From Candidatus Bathyarchaeota archaeon (GTDB taxonomy: Archaea > Thermoproteota > Bathyarchaeia > Bathyarchaeales > Bathycorpusculaceae), in the NCBI GenBank assembly GCA_029907545.1, contig JARYLR010000012.1, positions 1 to 43,372 on the forward strand: a stretch of DNA of 43,372 nucleotides, read 5' to 3'. Made by a program: the position numbers and the translations under genes. The notes beneath the pieces are model-generated. The model was not told the origin of the DNA. It worked only from the letters and a program-made list of their open reading frames with translations, and did not search any database. Of this stretch, positions 230 through 1,472 are shown in pieces; positions within the stretch are counted from its first letter, which is position 1, and every line of letters begins with the position of its first letter.

Positions 230-385
230 TTGAAGCTAATTACGCTTTACGTGCCCGAAACCTATCTTAAAGCTTTGGACAAACTCGTGGTTGAAAGGTT
301 CTATCCTAACAGGGCTGAAGCAATCCGCGTAGCTATCCGTGACCTGATAGTTGAAGAAGTCTGGAGGAAAGAGAACGTTGGCTAA
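230..385 (+). CDS. CdrS-like ribbon-helix-helix regulator
   Basis: A 51-residue protein made almost entirely of one ribbon-helix-helix (CopG/Arc-like) fold. It has a short N-terminal beta strand (KLITLYVPETYL), then a helix, the turn 'FYPNRAEAIRVAIRDL', and a charged C-terminus. The TTG start at 230 is preferred over an upstream ATG at 167: GGAGG sits 9 bases before it and the RHH strand begins right there. The end overlaps the FtsZ-like gene by 8 bases, implying translational coupling. In haloarchaea a short RHH regulator, CdrS, is co-transcribed with ftsZ2 and controls division genes; gene order and size match that pattern. It probably acts as a dimeric DNA-binding protein, perhaps on the palindromes just upstream. 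RHH class is secure; equivalence to CdrS is inferred from context. Confidence 0.8.
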   Translation: MKLITLYVPETYLKALDKLVVERFYPNRAEAIRVAIRDLIVEEVWRKENVG

Positions 386-1472
386 GCCTTCTTCGCAGCA
401 ATCTCTCAAATATAGTTGGCACTGCATGACACGAGAAGCAGTACCACAGAGCAAACCTCAACGCCTTGTGCTCGTCGGCATCGGATATGTAGGCATCAAA
501 ACCATAACAAAGTTCATGGAAGAAGGAAACTGCGGCTTAGAATGCATAGCCATCAGCAATCAAAAGTCCCACCTAGATGCAGCAAAAGCCCATCAGAAAA
601 TCCTGATTAAGGAGAAAAACATCAATCGCCCTTTTCCCCTACGCAAATCTGGCATCTGCAAAACTGCAATTGATGAATCGAGACATAACATTGAACAAGC
701 GCTTTGTGGTGCAGACATAGTTTTTGTGACAGCAAGTTTTGACAGCAAAACAGCCATAAAAAGTGTTCCTGTAATCGCAGAAATGGCTAAACAAATCGGC
801 GCCATAACCGTCGGCATTGTAACCACCTCTTTGAAAGCTGAAAAAGATCAAAGCGAGCAAATAGCTAATGCTGTGTGCAGTATGCGCAGACAGTGCGACA
901 CAGTGATCATCATTGACGACAACAAACTTGGGCAACTTGCTCCAAAACTCAAAACAACCGATGAAGCGCTGGCAAACGTGATTAAAGAAATAGTTGAGAC
1001 AATGTCTGCACCAAGCCTAATCAATCTTAACGTAGCAGACTTCCGAACCATAGTAAGCCGCGGAGGCGTTGCAGTAGTTGGAGTCGGCGAATCCGACGCC
1101 CCCAACCGAGCAGAAGAAGCAGTGAGAAGCGCACTGAAAAGCTCAATGCTTGACGTGGAATACTCTGGTGCAACGGGTGCATTGATTCATGTTACAGGCG
1201 ACAGCCACATGACCATAGAAGAGGCAAACCGCGTTGGAGAAATTGTAACAGAAATGATGGATAACAATGCCCAAGTCGTATGGGGCGCACAAGTCAACCC
1301 CGCTCAGGAAGGCAGGTTGAAAGTGACGCTTGTAATGACAGGTGTGAATTCACAGAAGACGCAAAGCCGCCTTGGAGCAATCGCGCCTCAGCTTTTCGAC
1401 ATGGATCCTTACGCAGAGCCTGAGAGAAATCTGAACATAAAACTTGATTTATACCAAATGGAAACCTTCTAA
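378..1472 (+). CDS. FtsZ/tubulin-family protein with degenerate GTP-binding site
   Basis: A 364-residue FtsZ homologue. The TTG at 378 is chosen because GGAGG at 363-367 is well spaced and it overlaps the end of the RHH gene. The C-terminal half is strongly FtsZ-like (GGVAVVGVGESDAPNRAEEA, SGATGALIHVTG, VVWGAQVNP, VTLVMTGV). The nucleotide-binding half is not. Loop T1 reads GIGYVGIK (34-41) instead of G-x-GGAGxN. The T3 glycine-rich loop is replaced by charged and proline residues (about 80-93). The tubulin signature GGGTGTG is replaced by ASFDSKTAIKS (119-129). The T7 loop NxDxxD reads NLNVAD (216-221), losing one Asp. The surrounding strands (ADIVFVTA, VPVIAEMAKQIGAITVGIV) are intact, so this is not frameshift damage. 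It could be a non-hydrolysing FtsZ paralogue that modulates or caps a division filament. Family is near certain; the lost GTPase is inferred from residues. Confidence 0.93.
   Translation: MAKPSSQQSLKYSWHCMTREAVPQSKPQRLVLVGIGYVGIKTITKFMEEGNCGLECIAISNQKSHLDAAKAHQKILIKEKNINRPFPLRKSGICKTAIDESRHNIEQALCGADIVFVTASFDSKTAIKSVPVIAEMAKQIGAITVGIVTTSLKAEKDQSEQIANAVCSMRRQCDTVIIIDDNKLGQLAPKLKTTDEALANVIKEIVETMSAPSLINLNVADFRTIVSRGGVAVVGVGESDAPNRAEEAVRSALKSSMLDVEYSGATGALIHVTGDSHMTIEEANRVGEIVTEMMDNNAQVVWGAQVNPAQEGRLKVTLVMTGVNSQKTQSRLGAIAPQLFDMDPYAEPERNLNIKLDLYQMETF

Follow-up and report, generated by a model that had tools for sequence, protein, structure and literature searches.

Organization of the ftsZ locus

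We examined a stretch of 43,372 nucleotides from the genome of a Candidatus Bathyarchaeota archaeon, referred to here as the window. Near its beginning, the window was found to contain a gene of the FtsZ family directly behind a cdrS-like gene. The open reading frame of the original prediction was correct in position, strand, and start; the gene begins with a TTG codon at nucleotide 378, located 10 nucleotides 3' of a GGAGG sequence, and the two genes overlap at the end of the cdrS-like frame. The features of the locus are as follows.

230..385, + strand: cdrS-like ribbon-helix-helix gene (PF01402, NCBIfam CdrS), overlapping ftsZ in the intact relatives as well
363..367, + strand: Shine-Dalgarno sequence GGAGG of ftsZ, within cdrS (sequence)
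378..1472, + strand: ftsZ orthologue without the GTP-binding loops, 364 amino acids (open reading frame, profiles, alignment)
378..455, + strand: N-terminal leader (LAKPSSQQSLKYSWHCMT...), with a dN/dS of 0.06 in codons 4–26; the leader stretch is also found in tail-only relatives
477..500, + strand: T1 remnant GIGYVGIK, normally GVGGAGNN (alignment)
549..575, + strand: T2 remnant AISNQKSHL, normally AINTDALHL, with NTDA replaced by SNQK (alignment)
609..659, + strand: T3 region with its glycines lost, GLGAGGNPKIG replaced by NRPFPLRKSGIC (alignment)
741..761, + strand: T4 signature GGGTGTG replaced by DSKTAIK (alignment)
942..959, + strand: site of a six-residue deletion before helix H7 (alignment)
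948..1349, + strand: C-terminal FtsZ domain, with 81% identity to that of the closest intact orthologue (Pfam, identity comparison)
1023..1040, + strand: T7 loop NLNVAD, normally NLDFAD and NLDVAD in the sister species (alignment)
1374..1469, + strand: linker and C-terminal peptide (...NLNIKLDLYQMETF), presumed SepF-binding tail (kept in dead and tail-only relatives)

The cdrS-like gene likely starts at the TTG of nucleotide 230, behind a GGAGG sequence, and stops at 385; an in-frame ATG is present at 167. Its product matched PF01402 with 27.7 bits, which bears out the CdrS-like regulator proposed upstream of ftsZ. The NCBIfam CdrS model gave 35 bits, under its haloarchaeal cut-off of 100, and the gene is therefore called CdrS-like and not a proven CdrS. 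The Shine-Dalgarno layout of ftsZ was common to the window, the congener G001, and the tail-only loci described below, whereas the intact loci contained GGCGG or GGCGGAGG variants. The gene order 3' of ftsZ was the same in the window genome and the congener. Directly 3' of ftsZ, nucleotides 1568–1723 encode a small zinc-ribbon-like protein of 51 amino acids, which was kept in the congener (L109:2517-2708).

Fold and nucleotide-binding loops

The protein encoded at 378–1472 was found to match the Pfam families FtsZ_C (PF12327) with 102.5 bits and Tubulin (PF00091) with 56.6 bits (cut-off 33), both above their cut-offs, and the NCBIfam ftsZ equivalog model with 212 bits, short of its cut-off of 295. 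A structure model (AlphaFold) built from 48 homologue rows kept the FtsZ fold with a mean pLDDT of 73.5; a model from 20 rows was weaker, with a mean pLDDT of 66. The best PDB match was the Methanocaldococcus jannaschii FtsZ, 1w5a, with a TM score of 0.83 by target length (Foldseek). With its GTPase-domain fold and FtsZ_C domain, the protein belongs to FtsZ as a homologous family, and its best profile and PDB matches were all FtsZ (the family tree was built without a CetZ reference). A PHROGs search with the protein gave no match.

The loops were compared in an alignment of the protein with about 50 intact orthologues from Bathyarchaeia and with the FtsZ of M. jannaschii. In the T4 loop, CGLGGGTGTGSAP was replaced by ASFDSKTAIKSVP, so that DSKTAIK keeps one of the seven residues of the GGGTGTG signature, as had been predicted. 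The T1 and T3 glycine loops were both predicted to be gone; T3 and also T2 were indeed lost, but T1 was eroded to a bare GxGxxG with three glycines left. The T7 loop, which is NxDxxD in a working FtsZ GTPase and NVDFAD in the M. jannaschii alignment, contained the predicted Asn in place of one Asp. The alignment also showed the deletion before helix H7, absent from the original prediction and common to the sister species, and it removes the position of a Phe which we take to be the guanine-stacking residue of FtsZ structures. The protein of the sister species (G001) was 82% identical, with the same losses in T1–T4 and with the T7 Asp pair kept. Judged by its sequence, the protein of the window cannot bind or hydrolyze GTP in the normal way. 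The C-terminal FtsZ domain was well kept, as first noted.

The kept fold and C domain, together with the T7 Asp residues of the sister species, would suit a protein that still assembles, either without GTP or with another ligand, and whose filaments act in division alongside Cdv. We consider this improbable. FtsZ subunits stack with the nucleotide in their longitudinal interface, and the T1–T4 loops that would hold it there are lost or eroded. The comparable FtsZ of Nitrosopumilus maritimus formed no filaments in yeast even with its T4 motif exchanged (PMC3684127), and there are relatives that lack the whole domain and keep the tail.

Substitution pattern and selection

Between the window gene and that of the sister species, the dN/dS was 0.177 (95% interval 0.127–0.245) at an unsaturated dS of 0.55. 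The highest value was found in the N domain (0.22), followed by the C domain (0.14) and the leader (0.06); the neighboring genes ranged from 0.02 to 0.18. The N-domain identity to the nearest intact orthologue was 0.47, whereas that of an intact pair was 0.90; the corresponding values were 0.81 and 0.95 for the C domain, and 0.67 and 0.87 for the linker and tail. In the tree, the window gene and that of the congener were placed inside the clade of intact FtsZ of their own family, f1 (support 99/93), with a stem of 0.73 and tips of 0.12. The long stem and short tips, the divergence of the N domain, and the low dN/dS indicate that the nucleotide-binding side changed in a burst and was then held by purifying selection.

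Pseudogene decay was disfavored by the dN/dS together with the intact frames in two species, and the loop losses were common to both, in agreement with the earlier view that the gene is not decaying. On this evidence the protein appears to be a non-hydrolyzing member of the FtsZ family, in frame and under selection, as originally proposed.

A single ftsZ orthologue in a genome with sepF and cdv genes

The window genome is a draft of 1.46 Mb in 55 contigs with 97% completeness, in which the window is contig 3, and that of the congener is 86% complete. Using PF00091 and PF12327, only one protein was found in the window genome, and the intact second FtsZ that had been thought worth searching for was not among its contigs; PF00091 likewise found a single protein in the congener. 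A search of the genome contigs with the window protein alone led only to the congener. In our survey of 257 genomes of the class, mostly drafts, the sister genera were found to contain a cdrS-overlapping FtsZ with all loops intact, which shared 52–61% identity with the window protein along its whole length. By its locus and its place in the tree, the window gene is orthologous to the intact FtsZ that is linked to cdrS in the sister genera, and is not a paralogue. The suggested phylogeny was informative in that the protein grouped with the intact f1 FtsZ, and it gave no support to the paralogue that had been proposed.

The original prediction went on to suggest that a dead paralogue could cap, template, or inhibit an active division filament. 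A cap would need a T7 and C-domain side that is better kept than the GTP side, and this was observed; a second strong PF00091 protein, an intact FtsZ, was found elsewhere in 8 of the 50 tail-only genomes of family f1. However, the window protein is the only FtsZ of its genome, and hence a filament of FtsZ on which a cap or inhibitor could act is missing; the congener also lacks another copy, and both the tree and the locus indicate an orthologue. We therefore regard this role as very improbable. Even less credence is given to an assembly artefact, in which an active ftsZ lies in the missing 3% of the 55-contig draft and the window gene is a paralogue after all, since a second copy is absent from both draft genomes of the genus, and the cdrS-linked gene of the sister genera is the intact FtsZ itself.

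The search for SepF was positive: the window genome encodes a SepF (PF04472, 43.8 bits), which was 71–77% identical to the SepF of close intact relatives. The same genome contains one run of genes for an ESCRT-III-like protein, a CdvA-type protein (PF18822, 47.8 bits), a further ESCRT-III-like protein, and a Vps4-type AAA ATPase with an MIT domain. The ESCRT-III assignments are weaker, as the first open reading frame alone gave 18.7 bits with Pfam Snf7 (cut-off 27.3); a genome-wide Snf7 search found one match above the cut-off, with 33.8 bits, in the Cdv gene run. The gene content makes Cdv (CdvA/ESCRT-III/Vps4) most likely the division machine, by analogy with the function of these genes in relatives.

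Other full-length forms without GTP-binding loops

Loop-less orthologues were also found in family f6 of the same order (G181, G182, G183, and G192), which contains intact or nearly intact forms as well (G185 and G190). More diverged forms were present in deeper families (G022, G252, and G015). A single origin of all full-length forms without the loops was considered and set aside, with the window pair in f1 and the other strongly affected forms in f6. Forcing the f6 and window forms into one clade cost 27 log units with a p-AU of 0.046, which disfavors the single clade only just and, given the long branches, favors two losses with caution. The loops were probably lost at least two times in Bathyarchaeia.

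Half-eroded FtsZ were observed in G188 of f6 (L074, G188:C33:59519-60661), with GLSGGTGMEAAP at T4 and TQDAGTSGNP at T3, and in G189; the FtsZ of G188 and G189 are possibly a snapshot of loop loss under way. Multiple FtsZ-family genes were seen as well. L083 (G201:C3:6500-15444) contained four of them in tandem, without cdrS at the cluster, and at least two FtsZ-family matches were located close together on each of the contigs G451:C20, G551:C6, and G335:C37.

Tail-only forms of the ftsZ locus

In genomes without a Pfam FtsZ_C match for the cdrS-linked gene, a profile of full-length orthologues (A1) found short open reading frames that matched only the last FtsZ strand and the C-terminal tail. 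A second profile (A2) was built from these tail-only proteins, and open frames of less than 125 amino acids were counted, with the contig-edge case G147 excluded. Tail-only genes were found in 50 genomes from nine genera of the window's family f1, in 6 genomes of f4, and in 4 of f27; these are counts of profile matches, 33 distinct ones of which were examined at the locus level. As Pfam FtsZ cut-offs leave the tail-only form unseen, counts of FtsZ presence or absence made with Pfam misread these genomes.

The 33 distinct examples from f1 and f4 measured 83–116 amino acids between stops. The tail-only proteins of f1 were about 105 amino acids long and consisted of the leader and the FtsZ C-terminal tail; they kept the leader stretch and the tail (LYDLE..PEKPLNIDLDLYQMENY), and all five invariant residues of the alignment were in the C-terminal tail. 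An overlap with cdrS like that of ftsZ was present in all 32 loci that extended far enough (cdrS frames of less than 60 amino acids included), with the Shine-Dalgarno sequence in the same place, and the f1 loci examined had the TTG start of the window. The dN/dS of tail-only pairs ranged between 0.19 and 0.39. SepF was found in 46 and Snf7 in 49 of the 50 tail-only f1 genomes. No cdrS match was found at the f27 tail-only loci or at Nitrosopumilus-type loci.

A split or frameshifted ftsZ was rejected as the source of these genes, as no core fragment turned up when their loci were searched with profiles in all six frames. Two intermediate loci, L126 (G187) and L141 (G186), contained frames of 315–331 amino acids behind cdrS in which the leader, C-domain fragments, and tail alone were recognizable. 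In G124, a tail-only gene was located about 3 kb from sepF (L123 and L215; G124:C1:822836-826194), and a functional linkage of the two is possible.

Slow decay would account for part of this pattern. The protein would have become dispensable when Cdv took over and would now be at a late stage before loss, with the tail and the C domain the last to go; the strongly eroded N domain, the long stem branch, the relatives without nearly the whole gene, and the existence of a dead FtsZ in Nitrosopumilus, for which division by Cdv has been suggested (PMC3684127), all fit. We nevertheless hold it to be unlikely, since a dN/dS of 0.18 at a dS of 0.55 and an intact frame were found in two species, and since, in all nine genera, the tail-only genes keep their start, the Shine-Dalgarno sequence, and the overlap with cdrS, with tail residues that hardly vary.

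Proposed function

Many archaea have both FtsZ and Cdv, and the question is what role FtsZ plays once Cdv divides the cell. With a probability of about 0.55, we propose that the window protein survives, in cells with Cdv division, because its C-terminal peptide docks on SepF without any need for GTP. In this Bathyarchaeia genus, the ordinary ftsZ linked to cdrS would have given up GTP-dependent polymerization, and the CdvA/ESCRT-III/Vps4 machine of the same genome would carry out the constriction. Selection would then keep a CdrS-controlled, nucleotide-independent scaffold, which would dock by its C-terminal peptide on membrane-bound SepF and would mark or regulate the SepF site instead of forming a constricting filament. 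In many relatives the locus has been cut to the leader and tail, which would be expected of a protein that functions through its tail. That little but the tail is kept there suggests that evolution is preserving the partner of the tail, which is probably SepF, the membrane anchor, though SepF may be kept for some other reason. In the window protein the linker and tail were no better conserved than the C domain, and so the C domain may matter too.

More tentatively, and with rather less confidence than in the docking itself, FtsZ may have been stripped of its engine repeatedly in Cdv-bearing archaea, from GTP-dead full-length proteins to a leader and tail of about 70–120 residues, mostly at one and the same locus behind cdrS. 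What such a GTPase-free 'FtsZ' could not lose would be SepF docking by the tail. If true, the protein would connect Cdv division with both control by CdrS and the membrane site of SepF. As SepF and Cdv are kept throughout the graded series in this one locus of Bathyarchaeia (working, GTP-dead, and tail-only), the question is open to a direct test: what the binding partner of the tail is, and whether the tail positions Cdv.

Comparison with known systems

It was the GGGTG(S/T)G loop that led to the discovery of the FtsZl1 and FtsZl2 families (PMC2875224). Like these, the window protein is a divergent member of the FtsZ superfamily; unlike them, it lacks that loop and is an FtsZ orthologue. The FtsZl families are not the right assignment, as they are recognized by the very loop that is missing here.

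In haloarchaea, the product of ftsZ2 is needed for division and cdrS is located directly upstream; cdrS-ftsZ synteny has also been sought in Bathyarchaeota (PMC7439475). The window resembles this cdrS-ftsZ2 locus in its directly upstream and overlapping ribbon-helix-helix gene of CdrS type, but differs from the haloarchaeal one in that its ftsZ has no GTP loops.

In Methanobrevibacter smithii, the C-terminal peptide of FtsZ is a binding site of the archaeal SepF (PMC8178401). At the gene level the window genome agrees with such a SepF-anchored FtsZ, having a sepF gene and a short, conserved C-terminal peptide. The tail is presumed to be the SepF-binding peptide from its position, and its LDLYQMENF motif, a Bathyarchaeia form, is unlike the published GID consensus; docking on SepF is here a prediction.

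An earlier paper mentions non-canonical FtsZ-like sequences in Bathyarchaeia but gives no detail (PMC9723716). The literature searched, in which subscription journals were mostly outside the scope, contained no report of an independent origin amid intact orthologues, of the cdrS setting, or of tail-only forms. A GTP-dead FtsZ beside Cdv is already known from Nitrosopumilus. The FtsZ of N. maritimus (Nmar_1262) has the T4 motif AGKAGSA and formed no filaments in yeast, and Cdv was suggested to divide the cell (PMC3684127); Thaumarchaea encode FtsZ and SepF, yet divide by ESCRT (PMC10936438). A Nitrosopumilus-type FtsZ in another family of the phylum, with AGKAGSA at T4, also ends in ELDLYQLE, and in L221–L224 (G258, G523, G349, and G394) AGKAGSA or a similar sequence was seen at T4 with a DLYQLE-like C-terminal peptide kept. 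The N. maritimus FtsZ is the closest precedent of the window protein, which likewise lacks the T4 GTP motif and has Cdv genes in the same genome. In contrast to the N. maritimus FtsZ, the C domain and T7 of the window protein are far better kept, and the protein arose separately, in a class with most of the full-length orthologues examined intact; unlike the Nitrosopumilus-type loci, its gene lies behind cdrS.
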